Source: a virus. From it: 64,000 nt of DNA. Below the pieces are notes generated by a model. That model was not told where the DNA came from. It saw nothing but the letters and a program-made list of their open reading frames with translations, and did not search any database. Made by a program: the position numbers and the translations under genes. This document shows, one piece after another, positions 41,515 through 59,620 of this stretch; the first letter of the stretch is position 1; every line of letters begins with the position of its first letter. Location of the stretch: IMG/VR virus record IMGVR_UViG_3300043331_001086, positions 1 to 64,000 of that record; one strand, 5' to 3'.

Positions 41515-43031
41515 TGGCAGTGGCCGTCCGCCCCATCCCCACCGCCGGACCACACCGGCCCACCGTCGAGCAGACAGCGGTGATGGACCTGTTCAAGTCC
41601 GGCCGGGACATGGTGATCCAGGCTGGCGCGGGCACCGGCAAGACCACCACCCTCGGGATGCTGGCACGCACGACCTCGCGGCACGGGTGCTACGTCGCGT
41701 TCAACAAGAGCGCCGCCCAGGACGCCGACCGCGCCATGCCGGTCACCGTCCAGTCCTCGACCATGCACTCCCTCGCCTACCGGGCCCTCAACGCCGAGCT
41801 CGGCATCTGGCAACGGCTCAACGACGCGAAGCGGATGCCGTCGGCCCGGCTCGCTAAGCGCCTCGGGATCGGGCCCGTCCACGTGACGATCCCCGGGGCC
41901 CCGGTGAAGGTGCTCGCGCCCGCGCTCCTCGCCGGGCACGTCATGCGCGCCCTGCGCCGGTTCTGCGAGTCCGCCGCCGAGTCACCCGGCCCCGAGCACT
42001 TCCCGTACCTCCACGGGATCGACGTCCACGACGCCGACGGCGTGCACGGGAACGTGAACAACCGCCAGCTGGCCTACCACCTCCTTGAGCCCCTCACGAA
42101 GGCCTGGGACGACGTGCGCGGCCCGGCGATGCTGGTGCCGTTCGCGCACGAGCACTACCTCAAGATCTGGCAGCTACGGAACCCCCAGCTGCCCGGCGAG
42201 TTCGTCCTGTTCGATGAGGCCCAGGACGCGAACGGCGTGATGCTCGCGGTCCTCGCCGCGCAGACCGGCAAGCAGATGGTCTACGTCGGCGACAGCCAAC
42301 AGCAGATCTACGAGTGGCGGGGCGCGATCAACGCCCTCGACCAGTTCGAGGGGGAACAGCGGTGGCTGTCCCAGTCGTTCCGGTTCGGGCCCGCCGCGGC
42401 CGAGCTCGCGAACGTGATCCTCGCCCGCCTCGACTCCCCCCTGCGCCTGCGGGGCACCCCGTCCCTGGCGACCCGCGTCGGCCGGTGCGACCGGCCCCGG
42501 GCGGTGCTGTGCCGGTCGAACGCCACGGCGGTGAACGTCCTCCTCGGCGTGCAGCGCGAGGGGCGCACCGGCCACCTGGTCGGCGGTGACCGGGAGTTGA
42601 TCCGGTTCGCGACCGCGGCCGCGAAGCTGCAAGCCGGCGAGAAGGTGACGCACCCGGACCTCGCGTGCTTCGACTCGTGGCGCGAGGTGCAGGCCTACGT
42701 CGACCAGGACCCCGCCGGGGACGACCTCCGGATGATGGTCAAGCTCCTCGATGACTACGGCGTGCAGATCGTCCTCGACGCGCTCGACGGCGCGATCGGC
42801 GAGGACGGCGCGGACGTGATCATCTCGACCGCGCACCGGGCGAAGGGGCGGGAGTGGCCGTCGGTCAGCCTGGCGACGGACTTCGACCCCCCACGCGACG
42901 GCGACGGGAACCGGCTCTGGGAGCTACAGGCCCCGGAGTGGCGGCTCCTCTACGTGGCCTGCACCCGGGCCCGGGAGGTGCTCGACATCACCCGGTGCGA
43001 GGCCGTGTCCGACCTGGCGGCGGGCCGATGA
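41514..43031 (+). CDS. UvrD/Rep-family SF1 helicase
   Basis: A 505-aa helicase. Motifs in order: Q-motif region RPTVEQTAVMDL, Walker A GAGTGKTT at ~38-45, motif II FVLFDEAQDAN, motif III YVGDSQQQIYEWRGA, motif V/VI STAHRAKGREWPS and LLYVACTRAREVL. It is shorter than UvrD (~720 aa) and lacks most 1B/2B insertions. Probably a 3'-5' DNA helicase used in replication or recombination. Confidence 0.85.
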   Translation: MAVAVRPIPTAGPHRPTVEQTAVMDLFKSGRDMVIQAGAGTGKTTTLGMLARTTSRHGCYVAFNKSAAQDADRAMPVTVQSSTMHSLAYRALNAELGIWQRLNDAKRMPSARLAKRLGIGPVHVTIPGAPVKVLAPALLAGHVMRALRRFCESAAESPGPEHFPYLHGIDVHDADGVHGNVNNRQLAYHLLEPLTKAWDDVRGPAMLVPFAHEHYLKIWQLRNPQLPGEFVLFDEAQDANGVMLAVLAAQTGKQMVYVGDSQQQIYEWRGAINALDQFEGEQRWLSQSFRFGPAAAELANVILARLDSPLRLRGTPSLATRVGRCDRPRAVLCRSNATAVNVLLGVQREGRTGHLVGGDRELIRFATAAAKLQAGEKVTHPDLACFDSWREVQAYVDQDPAGDDLRMMVKLLDDYGVQIVLDALDGAIGEDGADVIISTAHRAKGREWPSVSLATDFDPPRDGDGNRLWELQAPEWRLLYVACTRAREVLDITRCEAVSDLAAGR

Positions 43032-44527
43032 CCGCCACCGTGACCGACCTGTTCTGCGGGGCCGGTGGGTCGTCGCTGGGTGCCGAGGCCGCGGGCATGG
43101 AACTCGTGATGGCGGCGAATCACTGGCAGACCGCGATCGACGTCCACCAGGCCCATTTCCCCGAGGCGGGCCACGACTGCGCCGACGTGTCCCAGGCCGA
43201 CCCGCGCCGCTACCCGGTGACCGACATCCTGATCGCCAGCCCCGAGTGCACGAATCACTCACAGGCCCGCGGGGTGTCGCGCCGGGCCCAGCAGCCCTCC
43301 CTGTTCGAGGGCCCCGACCCCGCGGCCGAGCGGTCCCGGGCGACGATGTGGGACATCCCCCGCTTCGCCGAGCAGATCCCCTACACCGCGGTCATCGTGG
43401 AGAACGTGGTCGAGGCGACCCGGTGGGTCGGGTGGCGCGCCTGGTGCCTCGCCATGGCGGACCTCGGCTACGACCGCCGGGTGCTGTCACACAACTCGAT
43501 GCACCACGGGGTGCCCCAGTCCCGGGACCGGATCTACGTCGTGTTCACCCGGCGGGGCCTGGCCCCAGACCTCGACCTCGAGCTCGTGGCCCCGTGCCCG
43601 CGGTGTGGCGCGGACCGACCGTGCCGCCAGGCATGGAAGCCGGACCGGTGGGTCGGCCGCTACGGCCAGCAGTACCGGTGGGCGTGCACCACCTGTGGGG
43701 CCGAGGTGGTCCCCGCCACCGAGCCCGCCGCGTCGATCATCGACTGGGACCTCGACTGCCCACGGATCGGCCAGCGCACCCGCCCCCTCGCGCCGGCGAC
43801 CCGCGCCCGGATCCTCGCCGGTCTGCAACGCTACGGGTGGGCCCCGGTGATCACCGCCGGGGCGGGGCACGTCTACGAGACGACCCCCGGCAACCGGGCC
43901 CGCCCGCTCACCGACCCCCTCGGCGTCCAGCACGCGACCGCCCACCACGCGCTCGCCTCCCCGCCGGGGTTCCTGTTCCAGACCGCCCACGGGGGCCGGG
44001 TGTCCGACCTCGAGCGGCCCCACCCGACAGTGTGCGCGTCCGACGACCGGCAGGCCCTGGTGATCCCCCTGCGCCGCCACGGTCACGCCCAGGACACCGG
44101 CCGCCCGGTGCCGACAGTCACCGCGGGCGGGTTCCATCACGGCCTGCTGATGCGCAACAACGTCGGCGGCGCCGAGATGGTCACCCCGGTCACCGAGCCG
44201 GCGCGCACCCTCACGAGCAAGGGCCATCAGTCGTTGCTCGTCCCGTACAACGGGACCGGCCGGGCCATCCCCACCGAGCGGCCCCTCGGCACCCAGCCCT
44301 CACGGGATCGGTGGGCCCTGGTCGATCCCGACCGGGTGGTGGACGAGTGCGGGTTCCGGATGCTCGAACCCCACGAGATCGCGGCGGCCATGGCGTTCCC
44401 CGACGGCTACATCCCCGACGCGCTCACGAAGCGCGACCGGGTGAAGCTGGCCGGGAACGCCGTCACCCCACCGGTGATGGTGTGGATCGCCGGCCGTGTC
44501 CTACAGGCAATGGAGGCAGCAGCATGA
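43028..44527 (+). CDS. C5-cytosine DNA methyltransferase
   Basis: A 499-aa enzyme with motif I DLFCGAGGSS, catalytic motif IV SPECTNHS (Cys74, instead of the usual PPCQ), motif VI VIVENV, motif VIII QSRDRIYVVF and motif X KLAGNAVTPPV. An insertion with CPRCG, C and CTTCG (residues ~190-235) looks like a zinc finger in the target-recognition region. It transfers methyl groups to cytosine C5 in DNA. In a phage it would mask restriction sites or supply 5-methylcytosine for further modification. Overlaps the helicase by 4 bp. Confidence 0.85.
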   Translation: MTATVTDLFCGAGGSSLGAEAAGMELVMAANHWQTAIDVHQAHFPEAGHDCADVSQADPRRYPVTDILIASPECTNHSQARGVSRRAQQPSLFEGPDPAAERSRATMWDIPRFAEQIPYTAVIVENVVEATRWVGWRAWCLAMADLGYDRRVLSHNSMHHGVPQSRDRIYVVFTRRGLAPDLDLELVAPCPRCGADRPCRQAWKPDRWVGRYGQQYRWACTTCGAEVVPATEPAASIIDWDLDCPRIGQRTRPLAPATRARILAGLQRYGWAPVITAGAGHVYETTPGNRARPLTDPLGVQHATAHHALASPPGFLFQTAHGGRVSDLERPHPTVCASDDRQALVIPLRRHGHAQDTGRPVPTVTAGGFHHGLLMRNNVGGAEMVTPVTEPARTLTSKGHQSLLVPYNGTGRAIPTERPLGTQPSRDRWALVDPDRVVDECGFRMLEPHEIAAAMAFPDGYIPDALTKRDRVKLAGNAVTPPVMVWIAGRVLQAMEAAA

Positions 44528-44844
44528 CCTACCGGACCGGCGACCAGTGGATCGGCCGCATCGCCCGCTCGACCCCGCTCTCGTACGACGGGCTCACCGA
44601 CCGGGGCGGGACGGTGGTCATCACGTCGGACCTGTGGCCGAACATGCCCCTCCCCGGGAGCCGGGTGACAATCACCGTCGATGAGTTGCCCCCACGCTGG
44701 CAGACCGACACCGACTCGTCCGGGGACCTCTACCTGCTCTACGAGGGGACGCGCGTCGCCCAGCTGTATCTACCCCTCAAGGACGACGCCGCCGAGGTGC
44801 AGAAAGTGCTCGACGTCCTGAACGCGAAGGATCCCCGTGACTGA
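44524..44844 (+). CDS. 106-aa hypothetical protein in modification operon
   Basis: ATG overlaps the methylase stop. A beta-rich protein (GTVVITSDLWPNMPLPGSRV, DLYLLYEGTRVAQLYLPL) ending in a helix (AEVQKVLDVLNAKD). Overlaps the DUF3050 gene by 8 bp. No family recognised. Confidence 0.6.
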   Translation: MTYRTGDQWIGRIARSTPLSYDGLTDRGGTVVITSDLWPNMPLPGSRVTITVDELPPRWQTDTDSSGDLYLLYEGTRVAQLYLPLKDDAAEVQKVLDVLNAKDPRD

Positions 44845-45604
44845 CCTCCGCGACCACCTCGACGTCGCCCGGAAGGTGGTCGTCGGCCACCCCCTCTACG
44901 ACGACCTCACCGACCTCCACGCGCTCCGGATCTTCATGGACCACCACGTCTGGGCGGTCTGGGACTTCATGTCGCTGCTCACCGAGCTACAGCGCCGGGT
45001 CACCTGCACCACCGTCCCGTGGGTGCAACCCGCCGCGCCGGCGACCGCGGTCCGCCTGGTCAACGAGATCGTGCTCGGCGAGGAGTCCGACGACGTGCCC
45101 GGCTACGGGATCACCTCGCACGTGGACCTCTACCGGGCCGCGATGCACGAGGCCGGCGCGTCGACCACCCCGCTCGACGCGTTCCAGGCTGCCGTACGGG
45201 TCGCCACGTTGCGCCCCCTGCGGCTCGCCGCCCTCGCGGGGGTACTGGGGGCCCCCCTCGGTGCCGAGCGGTTCCTGGCGGCCACCATGGCCGTGGTGCA
45301 GGCCGGGACCCTGGCCGACATCGTGGGCGCGTTCGCGTTCGGCCGTGAGCAGCTGATCCCCGACCTGTTCCGCCCCCTCCTCGCGAACCCCGCCGCCCGC
45401 CTGTTCGGGGTGTACCTCGAACGCCACGTCCTCATCGACGCCGAGGAGCACGGCCCCGCGGCCGAGCACCTGGTCGACAGCCTGCTCGCGTCGGCCGACC
45501 GTGAGCGTGCCTATCAGGCCGGGCTCGTGGCCCTCGGGGCCCGGTCCGAGCTCTGGTCCAGCGTGCAGCGCGCGATCCATGACGCCCGCCGGGTGGGTCA
45601 GTAG
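44837..45604 (+). CDS. DUF3050-type heme-oxygenase-like protein
   Basis: A 255-aa mostly helical protein with GTG start. It matches DUF3050: HPLYDDLTDLHALRIFMDHH, VWAVWDFMSLLTELQRRVTC, VRLVNEIVLGEESDDVPGYG and HVDLYRAAMHEAGA. Conserved His and Glu residues in these helices would suit a di-metal centre in a heme-oxygenase-like bundle. The reaction is unknown. In this position it may act on a nucleotide, base or cofactor for DNA modification (inference). Confidence 0.75.
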   Translation: MTDLRDHLDVARKVVVGHPLYDDLTDLHALRIFMDHHVWAVWDFMSLLTELQRRVTCTTVPWVQPAAPATAVRLVNEIVLGEESDDVPGYGITSHVDLYRAAMHEAGASTTPLDAFQAAVRVATLRPLRLAALAGVLGAPLGAERFLAATMAVVQAGTLADIVGAFAFGREQLIPDLFRPLLANPAARLFGVYLERHVLIDAEEHGPAAEHLVDSLLASADRERAYQAGLVALGARSELWSSVQRAIHDARRVGQ

Positions 45605-45614: not shown

Positions 45615-46307
45615 ATGACCGACACCGACCGGCCCCCGCGGTGGCAGGAGTACCTGTCGCTGGACGAACTCCTCGAACGGCGCGACCCGCGCAACCCGAA
45701 GGACCACGCCGACCGCGACATCCGGAAGTCGATGGGCCGGTTCGGGTACACCGAGCCGGTCATGGTCGATGAGCGCACCGGGTTCCTCGTCGCCGGGCAC
45801 GGCCGGGTCGACAACCTCGCGGCACGGCGCGCCGCCGGGGAGAACCCACCTGACGGGATCGTGGACCACCCCGAGCGCGGCTGGACGGTCCCCACGAACC
45901 GAGGCTGGGCGAGCCGGTCCGACGAGGAAGCCGCCGCCTACCTGGTGGCCGCGAATCAGCTGACCATCAAGGGCGGCTGGAAACCGGACCCCTTCGCCGC
46001 GATCCTCGCCGAGCTCCGGTCCACCGACACCGGGCTCGAGGGGATCGGCCTGTCACCCACCGAGGCCGCCGACATCCTCGCCGCGTACGGGCCCGTGCCC
46101 ACGCTGGACGAACTCGCCGACCAGATCGGTGACCCCGAGCCGGAGGACTTCTGGCCGGTCCTGCGGCTCAAGGTCTCACCGGAGACGAAGGCCGAGTTCG
46201 AGCGGTGGCTCGACACGACCGGGCAGGTGACCGCGGGCGACGACGCCGTGATGGCCGGTCTCCTCCGGATCGCGACAGCGGCCCTGGCCGACGCGGAGAC
46301 CTCGTGA
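45615..46307 (+). CDS. ParB-like N-terminal domain protein, possible DpdB-like partner
   Basis: A 230-aa protein. Residues ~10-110 form a ParB/Srx-like domain: RRDPRNPKDHADRDIRKSM, GYTEPVMVDERTG, and the phosphate-binding loop VAGHGRVDNLAARRA. AAYLVAANQLTIKGGW is typical of modification-linked ParB proteins. The C-terminal 100 residues are acidic and helical. It is followed by a DpdA-like gene; bacterial 7-deazaguanine systems pair DpdA with a ParB-fold DpdB. Partnership here is inferred from order. Alternatives: transcription regulator or methylase partner. Confidence 0.7.
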   Translation: MTDTDRPPRWQEYLSLDELLERRDPRNPKDHADRDIRKSMGRFGYTEPVMVDERTGFLVAGHGRVDNLAARRAAGENPPDGIVDHPERGWTVPTNRGWASRSDEEAAAYLVAANQLTIKGGWKPDPFAAILAELRSTDTGLEGIGLSPTEAADILAAYGPVPTLDELADQIGDPEPEDFWPVLRLKVSPETKAEFERWLDTTGQVTAGDDAVMAGLLRIATAALADAETS

Positions 46308-47242
46308 CGGCCCCGATCGCGGTCCTGCTCTCCTACCACTTCTGGCGGGACCTCGACCTCGATGAGGCCCTCGGCCTGTGGCCCGAGCACCCGCTCGTGT
46401 TCGCCGACTCGGGCGCGTTCTCCGCGTCGACCGTCGGCGCCGAGGTGGACGTGCACGCCTACGCCGAGTGGCTCGACCGGTGGCGCCACCACTTCGCCGT
46501 CGCCTGCACCCTCGACGTCATCGGCGATGAGGTGGCGACCGAGACGAACACCCGGATCCTCGAAGGCCACGGCCATCGGGTGCTCCCGGTGTTCCACACG
46601 AACGAGCCCTGGGACTACCTCGAACGCCTGGTGGCCGAGTACCGGTACGTCGGGGTCGGGGGCATGGTCCCCTACAAGATGCGAGAGAAGGCGCTCCTGC
46701 GCTGGCTGGTGCAGTGCTTCCGGGTCGCCGAGGGGACCGGCACCGTGTTCCACGGGCTCGGGCTCACGAACCCCCGGATGCTGGCCCCCCTGCCCTTCTA
46801 CTCGGTCGACTCGTCGTCGTGGTGCGCGGGCCTGATCTACGGCCGGATCCACCTCTACGACGGGCTCACCGGCAAGATCCGCCCGGTGCAGGCCGGGGAC
46901 CGCGGCGCGCTCCTGCGCGGCGACGAGCTCCGGGCCGTCGGCCTCGACCCCTACGAGGTGGCGACCCCGTACTACGGCCGCCGGGACCCCGACGGCGAGA
47001 AGCCCGCCGAGGTGTACCGCCGGCAACACACCGAGGAAGGCGCCGCGAACCTCGTGGCCGCCGCGGCCCAGGCCGAGTGGTGGCACGCCCGCCACGCCCC
47101 CGTGTCCGTCGACGGGATGCCCGACGGCCCGGTCACGTTCCTCGTCGCGATCAACCCGATGGACCTCGGCCGGATCCGCCAGCACTTCTACCCGACCACC
47201 GACCAGGAGACACCCGCACATGGGACAGCTGCCCCCGCATGA
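46304..47242 (+). CDS. dpdA: DpdA-like DNA transglycosylase (TGT family)
   Basis: A 312-aa protein with GTG start coupled to the ParB-like gene. It follows the TGT-fold DpdA pattern: LVFADSGAFSA with D35 as a candidate catalytic Asp, VACTLDVIGDEVATETN, VLPVFHTNEPWDYLERLV, YVGVGGMVPYK and VFHGLGLTNPRML, then PFYSVDSSSW. Family members replace guanine in DNA with a 7-deazaguanine such as preQ0. FolE is encoded immediately after. Zinc-site cysteines of bacterial TGT are not obvious, as is common in phage DpdA. The assignment is by motif reading only. Confidence 0.7.
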   Translation: MTAPIAVLLSYHFWRDLDLDEALGLWPEHPLVFADSGAFSASTVGAEVDVHAYAEWLDRWRHHFAVACTLDVIGDEVATETNTRILEGHGHRVLPVFHTNEPWDYLERLVAEYRYVGVGGMVPYKMREKALLRWLVQCFRVAEGTGTVFHGLGLTNPRMLAPLPFYSVDSSSWCAGLIYGRIHLYDGLTGKIRPVQAGDRGALLRGDELRAVGLDPYEVATPYYGRRDPDGEKPAEVYRRQHTEEGAANLVAAAAQAEWWHARHAPVSVDGMPDGPVTFLVAINPMDLGRIRQHFYPTTDQETPAHGTAAPA

Positions 47243-47834
47243 CCTCGACCCCTCGAAGCTCGAAGCCGGCACCCGGCTGATCCTCGAGGGGCTCGGCGTC
47301 GACCCCACCACCCACGACGAGGTGGTCGCGAACACCCCCCGCCGGGTGGCCGACCTCTACACCGAGATGATCAACCCCGCGTGGTGCGACGTGGACGAGG
47401 TGTTCAAGACCTTCGAGCCGCCCGAGGCCTGGCGCACCGGCGACATGGTGATGGTCCACGACGTCCACTACGTGTCGATGTGCGAGCACCACCTCGCCCC
47501 CAGCTTCGGCGTCGCGCACGTCGCGTACATCCCAGACCTCAAGGTCGTCGGCTACTCGAAGCTCAAGAAGGGGCTCAACTACGTCGCCCGCGGACCCCAG
47601 CTGAACGAGCGCATCCTCGCCGACACCCTCGACATCATCGAGAAGCAGGTCGAGCCGAAGGGGTGCGCGCTCGTGTTGCAGTCGACGCACTGCTGCATCG
47701 CGCTCCGCTCCTCGGCGCCGTCACAAGAGGTGGTGACGGTGCAAGGGTTCCGCGGTGACCTCGCCACCGACCCCTGGCGACGGGAGTTCACCGACACGCT
47801 GATCGGTCGGAAGCCCCTGTTCCTCGGGGCGTGA
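47220..47834 (+). CDS. folE: GTP cyclohydrolase I
   Basis: A 204-aa enzyme of normal family length. NTPRRVADLYTEMINP, VSMCEHHLAPSFGVAHVAYI (zinc Cys and His), GYSKLKKGLNYVARGPQLNE and STHCCIALR (second zinc Cys) are in order. The usual MxxRG after the last Cys reads IALRS here. It converts GTP to dihydroneopterin triphosphate, the first step toward folate or toward 7-deazaguanines (preQ0). Next to DpdA the second role is more likely. Overlaps dpdA by 23 bp. Confidence 0.85.
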   Translation: MGQLPPHDLDPSKLEAGTRLILEGLGVDPTTHDEVVANTPRRVADLYTEMINPAWCDVDEVFKTFEPPEAWRTGDMVMVHDVHYVSMCEHHLAPSFGVAHVAYIPDLKVVGYSKLKKGLNYVARGPQLNERILADTLDIIEKQVEPKGCALVLQSTHCCIALRSSAPSQEVVTVQGFRGDLATDPWRREFTDTLIGRKPLFLGA

Positions 47835-47992: not shown

Positions 47993-48280
47993 ATGGTCGG
48001 TGGCGGGTTCCTCCGGATCGGCGACAACGGCCAGGCCCAGCACCCCCACACGCTCGAGGACGCGCTCTGGCTCGCGCTCCGGCAGTGCGCCACCCACTCG
48101 GCCGGACCTCTCGCGACCGTCGCCCGGCTGATCGACGCGACCCACGAGGGGATCCTCGACCCGGCCGAGCTCGCGGCCGCGATCCGGACCCGGCTCGACG
48201 CCGCGGACATGCCCGCCGACCGTCGCCGGGTGGCCGAGGCGTTCCTCGAAGCCCTGTTCGATGGGACGCTCGCCCGATGA
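47993..48280 (+). CDS. 95-aa hypothetical protein
   Basis: ATG seven bases after GGAGGGGG. Mostly helical (TLEDALWLALRQCATHSAGP, LAAAIRTRLDAADMP) with a C-terminal VAEAFLEALFDGTLA helix. First gene of a new transcription unit that also carries the LOG-like and phosphoribosyltransferase genes. Unknown function. Confidence 0.6.
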   Translation: MVGGGFLRIGDNGQAQHPHTLEDALWLALRQCATHSAGPLATVARLIDATHEGILDPAELAAAIRTRLDAADMPADRRRVAEAFLEALFDGTLAR

Positions 48281-48735
48281 CGACCCGCTTCGGTCCCCTC
48301 GTCGCGGTCGTCGGCAAGGGACGCGACTGCCCGGCCGACGTTGTGAACGCCGCCGCGATCGTCGGCCACGAACTCGGCCGTGCCGGCGTCACCCTCCTCA
48401 CCGGCGGACTCGGCGGCGTGATGCTGTCGAGCGCGTGCGCGGCCCACGCCGTCGGCGGCCTGGTCGTCGCGCTCCTGCCGCTCGAGGAGGAATGCCTCCC
48501 CCCGGCCAACCTCGTGATCCGGACGGGCCTGTCCCACACCACCCGGAACGTGATCATGGGCACCGCCTGCGACGCGCTCATCGCGCTCGACGGTGGGCCG
48601 GGGACCATGCAAGAGGTGGCCGTCGCCTCCGAGCGCGGAGTGCCGGCCGTCCAGGTGGACACCGACCGGTGGCCACTCCCCCGCATCAGCTACTCGGAGG
48701 TGCAGTCATGGGCGAGCAAGGTCACGAGCAAGTAG
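48277..48735 (+). CDS. LOG/SLOG-family nucleotide-binding protein
   Basis: A 152-aa Rossmann-type protein. VAVVGKGRDC, TGGLGGVMLSSACAAHAVGG and the LOG-type loop DGGPGTMQEVAVASE (GGxGTxxE) place it in the LOG-like/SLOG superfamily, whose enzymatic members release free bases from nucleoside monophosphates. TLLTGGL and NLVIRTGLSHTTRNVIM agree. It precedes a phosphoribosyltransferase, suggesting a base salvage or nucleotide-signal function. Confidence 0.7.
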   Translation: MTTRFGPLVAVVGKGRDCPADVVNAAAIVGHELGRAGVTLLTGGLGGVMLSSACAAHAVGGLVVALLPLEEECLPPANLVIRTGLSHTTRNVIMGTACDALIALDGGPGTMQEVAVASERGVPAVQVDTDRWPLPRISYSEVQSWASKVTSK

Positions 48736-49259
48736 TCGTCGGCTGGGCCGAGGTGACCGTCCTCGCCAGGGCCGTCGCCGCGACCATCCGCGAGACCACC
48801 CGCGACATCGAGGCCGGACCCGTCGAGGGGATCTACGGCATCCCCCGCGGTGGGTGTGTCCCGGCCGCGCTCATCGCCGGCATGACCGAGATCCCCCTCG
48901 TGGAGGCCCCCGGCCCGACGGTGTTCGTGGTCGATGACCTCGTGGACTCGGGCCGCACCGCGAAGGACGTCCTGTCCGGCTACCCACAGGTGGCCGGGTT
49001 CCGGGCCCTCTACTGCAAGTCCTGGTCACCCCCCGATCTCACCGCCGGCGCGGTCGTCACCCCCGGCGACCCGTGGCTCGTGTTCCCGTGGGAGGCCCGG
49101 GAAATGGCCGCCCAGGACGCCGTGGTGCGCCTCATGCAGGCAGGGGGGGTGGACACCACCGACCCCGGCGTGGAGCCCGTAGCGGCCGCCCTGGCCGGTG
49201 TCCTGCCCAGCCACGTCGCATCCCTGGTCGGGGCGTGGCCCGGGGTCGCGATCCAGTAG
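48708..49259 (+). CDS. phosphoribosyltransferase
   Basis: A 183-aa type I phosphoribosyltransferase. The PRPP-binding motif VFVVDDLVDSGRTAKD spans residues 72-87, and GIYGIPRGGCVPAALIAG supplies the PPi loop. Such enzymes join a purine or pyrimidine base to PRPP. Overlap with the LOG-like gene suggests they act on the same base. If DpdA releases guanine from DNA, this enzyme could recycle it to GMP (inference). GTG/ATG choice: ATG at 48708 after GGAGGTG. Confidence 0.75.
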   Translation: MGEQGHEQVVVGWAEVTVLARAVAATIRETTRDIEAGPVEGIYGIPRGGCVPAALIAGMTEIPLVEAPGPTVFVVDDLVDSGRTAKDVLSGYPQVAGFRALYCKSWSPPDLTAGAVVTPGDPWLVFPWEAREMAAQDAVVRLMQAGGVDTTDPGVEPVAAALAGVLPSHVASLVGAWPGVAIQ

Positions 49260-58295: not shown

Positions 58296-58605
58296 ACGCC
58301 GCTGGTCCGTCATCGGCCACAGCGACAGCCTCTACGTGTCCCGCCTCGACAACGGTCCCGCCTACCGCGCGTTCGACAGCGACCAGGCCCACGCCCTCGC
58401 CGACACTCTCAACCTCGTCGCCGGGTTGCGCGGTGTCGTTCGCCGGCTGGACGAGGGGTGGCAGATCGTGGAGGACGAGGACGGGCAACCGTGCGGCTGG
58501 TACCTCGAATCCGGGATGGACGACATCGACATCAGCGGCGACGACACGATGACGCCCGACGAGGTGGCCGCACTCGTGAGCGTCCGGAGGGAGAACGATG
58601 GGTGA
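58285..58605 (+). CDS. 106-aa hypothetical protein
   Basis: ATG follows GGAGGAG. Contains RWSVIGHSDSLYVSRLDNGP, a helix (DQAHALADTLNLVAGLR) and an acidic C-terminus. Overlaps the DUF5131 gene by 8 bp. Unknown. Confidence 0.55.
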   Translation: MPSERRWSVIGHSDSLYVSRLDNGPAYRAFDSDQAHALADTLNLVAGLRGVVRRLDEGWQIVEDEDGQPCGWYLESGMDDIDISGDDTMTPDEVAALVSVRRENDG

Positions 58606-59620
58606 CCACACCGGCATCGAGTGGACCGACGCGACGTGGAACCCCGTCGTGGGGTGCGCGCATGTCAGCCCGGGGTGCGACCACTGCTACGCCGCCCGCG
58701 AGACCTCGGGGCGTCTCCGACACCTCCCGATCTACAGCGGCCTGGCCGAGGGCGGCCGGTTCACCGGCGAGGTGCGCGTCGTCCCCGACCGGCTCGATCA
58801 GCCCCTGCGCTGGCGCAAGCCCCGCCGGGTCTTCGTCAACTCGATGTCGGACCTGTTCCACGCCGGCATCCCCCACAGCTACGTCGCCGACGTGTGGGGC
58901 GTGATGCTCCTCGCCCAGCGGCACACGTTCCAGATCCTGACGAAGCGTCCACAGCTGATGGCCCAGGTGCTCGGCACCCGGACCTTCTACGACCTCGCCG
59001 CCGAGTCCGCGAACGAGTGGCCTGACCGGTTCTACGAGGACGAGCTCGCGCTCAACTTCGGTCTCGACGCCGGGCCGCCCGACATCCCGGGTCAGCCCCT
59101 CCCGAACGTGTGGCTCGGCACCTCGATCGAGAACGACCGCTACACGTTCCGGGCCGACCACGTGCGCGCCACCCCGGCGGCCGTCCGGTTCCTCAGCCTC
59201 GAGCCCCTCCTCGGCCCGCTCCCGTCCCTCAACCTCGACGGGATCGACTGGGTGATCGTGGGCGGCGAGTCCGGACCCGGCGCCCGGCCGATGCACCCAG
59301 GGTGGGCCCGCGACATCCGCGACCAGTGCATCGCCGCGGGCGTCCCGTTCCTGTTCAAGCAGTGGGGCGCCTGGCAACCCGTCGAGCCGGTGTACGCCGA
59401 GGACAGCCACGACGACGTGCTCATCGACGCGTACGACGTCGACGTGGTGTCCCTCAACCGGCAGGGCGAGATCGAGATGCGCCTGCCGCGGGCCAGTGAC
59501 CCGTCCGGCCACCAGCCCTCGCCGTCGTGGGCGTGCGACCCGTGGTGGCTGGCGAACGTCGGCAAGCACGCCGCCGGGCGCGAGCTCGACGGCCGCACCT
59601 GGGACGAGTACCCCTCGTGA
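58598..59620 (+). CDS. DUF5131 (phage Gp37/Gp68) protein
   Basis: A 340-aa protein of the Gp37/Gp68 family, related to radical-SAM/photolyase-like TIM barrels. The N-terminal signature is WTDATWNPVVGCAHVSPGCD followed by HCYA, giving a Cys cluster C-x6-C-x2-C able to hold an iron-sulfur centre. FVNSMSDLFH, FQILTKRPQLM, VWLGTSIEND and VIVGGESGPGARPM are the remaining family blocks. The reaction is not known; nucleic-acid repair or modification has been suggested for relatives. Confidence 0.8.
   Translation: MGDHTGIEWTDATWNPVVGCAHVSPGCDHCYAARETSGRLRHLPIYSGLAEGGRFTGEVRVVPDRLDQPLRWRKPRRVFVNSMSDLFHAGIPHSYVADVWGVMLLAQRHTFQILTKRPQLMAQVLGTRTFYDLAAESANEWPDRFYEDELALNFGLDAGPPDIPGQPLPNVWLGTSIENDRYTFRADHVRATPAAVRFLSLEPLLGPLPSLNLDGIDWVIVGGESGPGARPMHPGWARDIRDQCIAAGVPFLFKQWGAWQPVEPVYAEDSHDDVLIDAYDVDVVSLNRQGEIEMRLPRASDPSGHQPSPSWACDPWWLANVGKHAAGRELDGRTWDEYPS

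Follow-up and report, generated by a model that had tools for sequence, protein, structure and literature searches.

A candidate host-dependent ParB-DpdA-FolE DNA modification module in a predicted actinobacterial phage

How might a phage modify its DNA with a 7-deazaguanine base if it encodes the enzyme which would insert the base and not the pathway which makes it? The question is raised by three consecutive genes in the first 64,000 bases (hereafter the window, the whole stretch of DNA analyzed) of the 68,819-base virus record IMGVR_UViG_3300043331_001086, which encode a ParB-like protein, a DpdA-like transglycosylase and a GTP cyclohydrolase I (FolE) (Table 1). A sequence-only reading of the window had described them as coupled, and this is borne out, with the open reading frames overlapping by 4 bp (ParB/DpdA) and 23 bp (DpdA/FolE); the matches pointing to the identity of the three products are far beyond chance. 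The record has a G+C content of 72%, its portal protein resembles the portals of actinobacterial phages and the virus is predicted to be actinobacterial. The locus may be a working DNA modification module which depends on QueD, QueE and QueC of the host, a reduced form of the Rosebush-type operon ParB-DpdA-QueC-QueD-QueE-FolE, and a probability of roughly 0.55 is given to this reading.

The middle gene product is predicted to be a phage-type DpdA, of the kind found in phages 9g and Rosebush, that is, a DNA-guanine transglycosylase. It has no Pfam match and is related to two PHROG families named queuine tRNA-ribosyltransferase (phrog_887, E-value 1e-44; phrog_7068, E-value 4e-37), while by tblastn it matches Mycobacterium phage Nadezda (40% over 236 residues, E-value 3e-37) and the DpdA proteins of Rosebushvirus (E-value 8e-24) and Enterobacteria phage 9g (E-value 3e-19). 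The sequence-only reading had, beforehand, staked this assignment on the presence of a tRNA-guanine transglycosylase (TGT) fold, and that fold was found. An AlphaFold2 model built on an alignment of 38 window and contig sequences has a mean predicted local distance difference test score (pLDDT) of 93.3, and in a second look with VIA-align all 50 entries listed as its best structural matches were TGT enzymes, the closest being the archaeosine TGT 1iq8 (Z 16.3, root-mean-square deviation 3.4, 239 residues). Foldseek alone placed other barrels at the top, with E-values above 0.01, and was not relied on; a DpdA profile run against the sequences of solved structures found no TGT, whereas the structure comparison did. 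The motifs DSGAFS, DVIGD, FHG and SVDSS are all intact, and D35, D71, H98, H150 and D169 are invariant in the 38-sequence alignment. D35 and D169 were equated with the catalytic aspartates of TGT (D102 and D280) by motif and order rather than by residue-level superposition, and the CxCxxC zinc motif of tRNA-TGT enzymes is not visible in the DpdA sequence.

For the third gene, the earlier call of GTP cyclohydrolase I is upheld by a match to PF01227 (E-value 2e-39), and the fold family is certain. The zinc ligands and catalytic histidines are present, these being the equivalents of C110, H112, H113, H179 and C181 in the E. coli FolE numbering. In the GTP pocket S135, K136, E152 and R185 are kept, while two otherwise almost invariant positions carry conservative replacements, namely lysine for R139 (found in one of 105 relatives) and asparagine for Q151 (found in none of the 105).

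The first gene product is ParB-like in fold, as had been claimed, but the DpdB-like character also attributed to it was not supported by profile matches. It matches phrog_620 (E-value 3e-19) and phrog_498 (E-value 1e-18), the latter a family in which a ParB domain (the N-terminal part) is joined to a methyltransferase, and its family profile matches ParB/Spo0J/Noc structures with E-values down to 3e-10. The closest structures to its model (pLDDT 78.5) are ParB-N and Noc, at Z about 7, with sulfiredoxin at Z 6.2, and Foldseek gives a probability of 0.99 to ParB-N. These results indicate a ParB/sulfiredoxin superfamily fold, for which, at Z scores of about 7, the sequence match carries most weight. 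Among its matches at E-values up to 1 there is none of the DpdB models of PADLOC, nor does it match the DndB domain of Pfam; the ParB proteins of Rosebush-type operons likewise match no DpdB model.

The sequence-only reading had thought a phage DpdA with such a partner notable, yet this turns out to be the normal arrangement in this lineage. In a set of 94 DpdA loci drawn from the window, viral contigs, genome contigs and two phage records, some of them near-identical, 84 had enough upstream sequence for the position of ParB to be judged; it lies directly upstream of DpdA on the same strand in 68 of these and directly downstream in several others. The order ParB, DpdA, QueC, QueD, QueE, FolE is annotated in Rosebushvirus Godines (KR997932) and the same order without QueC in Nadezda (Marvinvirus), while the ParB upstream of DpdA was proposed as a dpdB homologue as early as 2019 in the CRB2 mycobacteriophage paper (PMC6392294). 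FolE is present in 76 of the DpdA loci and is accompanied by both QueD and QueE in 74; the window is one of the two exceptions and L078 the other, in which QueD was detected but no QueE. The linkage of enzyme and ParB is thus already known; it is the reduction of the operon, with FolE kept and QueC, QueD and QueE gone, that is an unusual and new variant.

Other variations were seen among these loci. Operons with ParB, DpdA, QueD, QueE and FolE and without QueC occur in Streptomyces, Pseudonocardiaceae and Gordonia genomes (L086-L092) and in L003, L036, L038, L043, L044 and L063. In the seven genomes (G004-G010) the QueC-family matches are only weak (E-value 3e-5 or worse), and these operons may therefore insert 7-carboxy-7-deazaguanine or have a substitute for QueC. 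By automatic count, tandem DpdA pairs are present in 32 loci (including L005, L007, L008, L010-L013, L022, L083, L084, L087, and L090), with the active-site motifs kept in both copies where inspected, and a possibility is that such pairs form a heterodimer as in eukaryotic TGT.

The absence of QueC, QueD and QueE, correctly noted earlier for the window, extends to the whole record. Profiles for QueC (PF06508), QueD (PF01242) and radical SAM/QueE (PF04055) gave no match in its 68,819 bases even at an E-value of 10, in a search which took in 4.8 kb beyond the window and in which control profiles gave matches, and profiles built from phage operon proteins found none of the three in the record either. 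The linear record has no end repeats and stops inside genes at both ends, so that the phage might encode these enzymes in a part of its genome which the record lacks. However, on the right it breaks off in the first part of a portal gene, of which it covers positions 12-244 of 620, and on the left it starts at about position 190-200 of a Mu F-like head gene; if these adjoin across the break, the missing part is probably about 1.7 kb and filled by the portal and head genes, whereas QueC-D-E of Godines alone take 1.84 kb. Such an explanation is regarded as highly improbable.

Since QueC, QueD and QueE are missing, the base would have to come from the preQ0 pathway of the host or from salvage. 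In a working module, the ParB-like protein would probably help to bring DpdA to the DNA, and DpdA would take guanine out of the phage DNA and put in a 7-deazaguanine base, preQ0 being the likeliest. The FolE of the phage would increase the supply of the first intermediate of the preQ0 pathway, perhaps feeding that of the host. The proposed exchange is modelled on phages with all four synthesis genes, in which DpdA inserts preQ0 into DNA; dPreQ0 reaches about 28% of G in Rosebush DNA, and deletion of dpdA from CAjan abolishes DNA modification (PMC6884629). The window phage lies outside this group of complete-pathway phages (FolE, QueD, QueE, QueC and DpdA), as QueC, QueD and QueE are not encoded.

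The Rosebush-type operon of Godines shares with the window the order ParB, DpdA and final FolE and the overlapping of genes, and its DpdA has 31% identity across the entire alignment and 38% within the aligned part; it differs in the three Que genes lying between DpdA and FolE, and its ParB and FolE are just 28 and 32% identical to those of the window. The operon of Marvinvirus phages (Nadezda, Typha, and Bipper) also has ParB, DpdA and FolE and already lacks QueC, but it keeps QueD and QueE, with a 141-aa gene of unassigned function replacing QueC. Phages with DpdA only (Orion, Salmonella phage 7-11, and Pantoea phage MED16) resemble the window in having DpdA without a complete preQ0 pathway, with modification dependent on the host (PMC6884629, PMC8306585). 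MED16 has no preQ0 genes and carries dADG in its DNA, for which host supply was proposed (PMC8306585). These phages have no FolE, whereas the window module retains both FolE and the ParB partner. The bacterial dpd islands (DpdA, DpdB, DpdC, and restriction genes) likewise combine an enzyme of TGT fold with a neighbouring protein of the ParB superfamily, but against the DpdA models of PADLOC the window DpdA reaches just an E-value of 0.04, and the window ParB has no match among the DpdB models; none of the dpdD-K genes was noticed among the genes scanned, no systematic search having been made for them.

Several points weigh against a working, host-dependent module. A search of the record for a YhhQ-type preQ0 transporter found none, and of the 296 Actinomycetota genomes sampled just 47 have a QueC that passes the cut-off; host supply is therefore possible but not the default, as a default host would not make preQ0. 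In addition, FolE is altered at the two positions described above, and descent from operon FolE is no more than possible by a tree test (p-AU 0.41). It is probably the host that decides whether the modification is present in the phage DNA. The phage might even have lost QueC, QueD and QueE while living in a host without preQ0, leaving DpdA without substrate, the DNA unmodified and the genes as remnants or active in occasional hosts only. There is a precedent in Orion, which has DpdA only, whose host lacks preQ0 genes and whose DNA carries no 7-deazaguanine (PMC6884629), and both the scarcity of QueC and the unusual FolE residues would agree with a silent module. The three frames are open and overlapping with their motifs kept, which argues against long-standing decay, and a silent module is rated less likely than a working one.

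FolE, for its part, could be unrelated to DNA modification and boost the synthesis of folate or another pterin, its place behind DpdA being incidental or reused; FolE singletons of phages have been set aside for that reason (PMC6884629). With some FolE proteins from actinobacterial chromosomes the window FolE shares 40-42% identity, but with the two mycobacteriophage operon FolE in the comparison 32-33%. In a tree its branch is very long and lies close to chromosomal FolE, and it tends to fall outside operon FolE; the chromosomal set of this tree was picked by similarity to the window FolE, which favours that placement. Nevertheless, FolE is in the usual last position of the operon, its frame overlaps dpdA by 23 bp, and its grouping with operon FolE is not rejected by the tree test; a separate origin could not be demonstrated. 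A role confined to pterin synthesis is considered unlikely, though more probable than Que genes in the missing part of the genome; both alternatives overlap with the readings of a working and of a silent module. If the module does work, modification of the phage DNA would be set by host metabolism, so that protection of the same phage against restriction could differ from one host to the next, and ParB, DpdA and FolE would form a natural minimal set for asking what ParB does.

The nearest phage kin of the window ParB belongs to Microbacterium phage Terij (50% identity), in which the gene after ParB matches a TET/JBP oxygenase domain below the Pfam cut-off (E-value 7e-7). The viral contig L140 shares the helicase of the window at about 45% and has beside it a similar ParB gene followed by a Mom-family gene (L140:4084-5387; PF25680, E-value 2e-35), by its sequence a putative further DNA modifier where the window has DpdA. 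The literature describes ParB domains that adjoin phage DNA modifiers or are fused with them, and states their role as unknown (PMC12783734). Because of the Terij and L140 neighbors and this literature, ParB looks, from few cases, like a recurring, general partner of phage DNA modifiers rather than a proven DpdB. A further-reaching and doubtful proposal is that ParB acts as a general clamp or loading partner of unrelated base modifiers (DpdA here, TET/JBP in Terij, Mom in L140, and methyltransferases in fusions), and that the phage joins it with a DpdA using a base wholly or partly derived from the host. The wide ParB-DpdA linkage makes the role of ParB beside such modifiers directly testable.

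Table 1. Genes of the predicted modification module (positions in the window).
Predicted product	Position	Strand	Length and start codon	Assignment
ParB-N-like protein, putative DNA-binding partner of modification enzyme	45615..46307	+	230 aa, ATG	phrog_620, phrog_498
DpdA-like DNA-guanine transglycosylase	46304..47242	+	312 aa, GTG	phrog_887, TGT fold
GTP cyclohydrolase I, FolE	47220..47834	+	204 aa, ATG	PF01227

Scans of viral contigs with the window DpdA, ParB and FolE, one protein at a time, returned nothing closely related, and phage relatives traced through the terminase and helicase are just 31-46% identical, with DpdA in none of them. Just upstream of the module and in the same gene run are genes for a C5-cytosine DNA methyltransferase (43028-44527) and a DUF3050 (haem-oxygenase-like) protein (44837-45604), given which a second DNA modification beside the DpdA module is possible. 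Downstream of FolE (48277-49259) are a SLOG/LOG-like protein of nucleotide phosphoribohydrolase type and a phosphoribosyltransferase-like protein, which could function in base salvage.

A DUF6884 protein (PF21818, E-value 1e-36) is encoded outside the window at record positions 65489-65965 (L002:5489-5965), and such a protein was found in 10 of the 29 DpdA-bearing records searched. DpdC of bacterial dpd islands is reported to have a DUF6884 domain (PMC11888242). As a DpdC-like maker of ADG, however, the protein was left as a weak lead: its match to PADLOC DpdC is weak (E-value 0.009), that of the Godines DUF6884 protein is better (E-value 4e-6), yet Rosebush, which is of the same virus genus as Godines and may carry the gene too, is reported with dPreQ0 and mere traces of dADG. 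The nearest kin of the protein are in phages absent among the DpdA matches listed.

Elsewhere in the window a DUF5131 protein is encoded at 58598-59620 (PF07505, E-value 1e-96). In the record as a whole CTAG, TGGCCA, CGCGCG and AGCGCT are under-represented (0.24-0.34 of Markov expectation), while GAGCTC and CAGCTG are over-represented.
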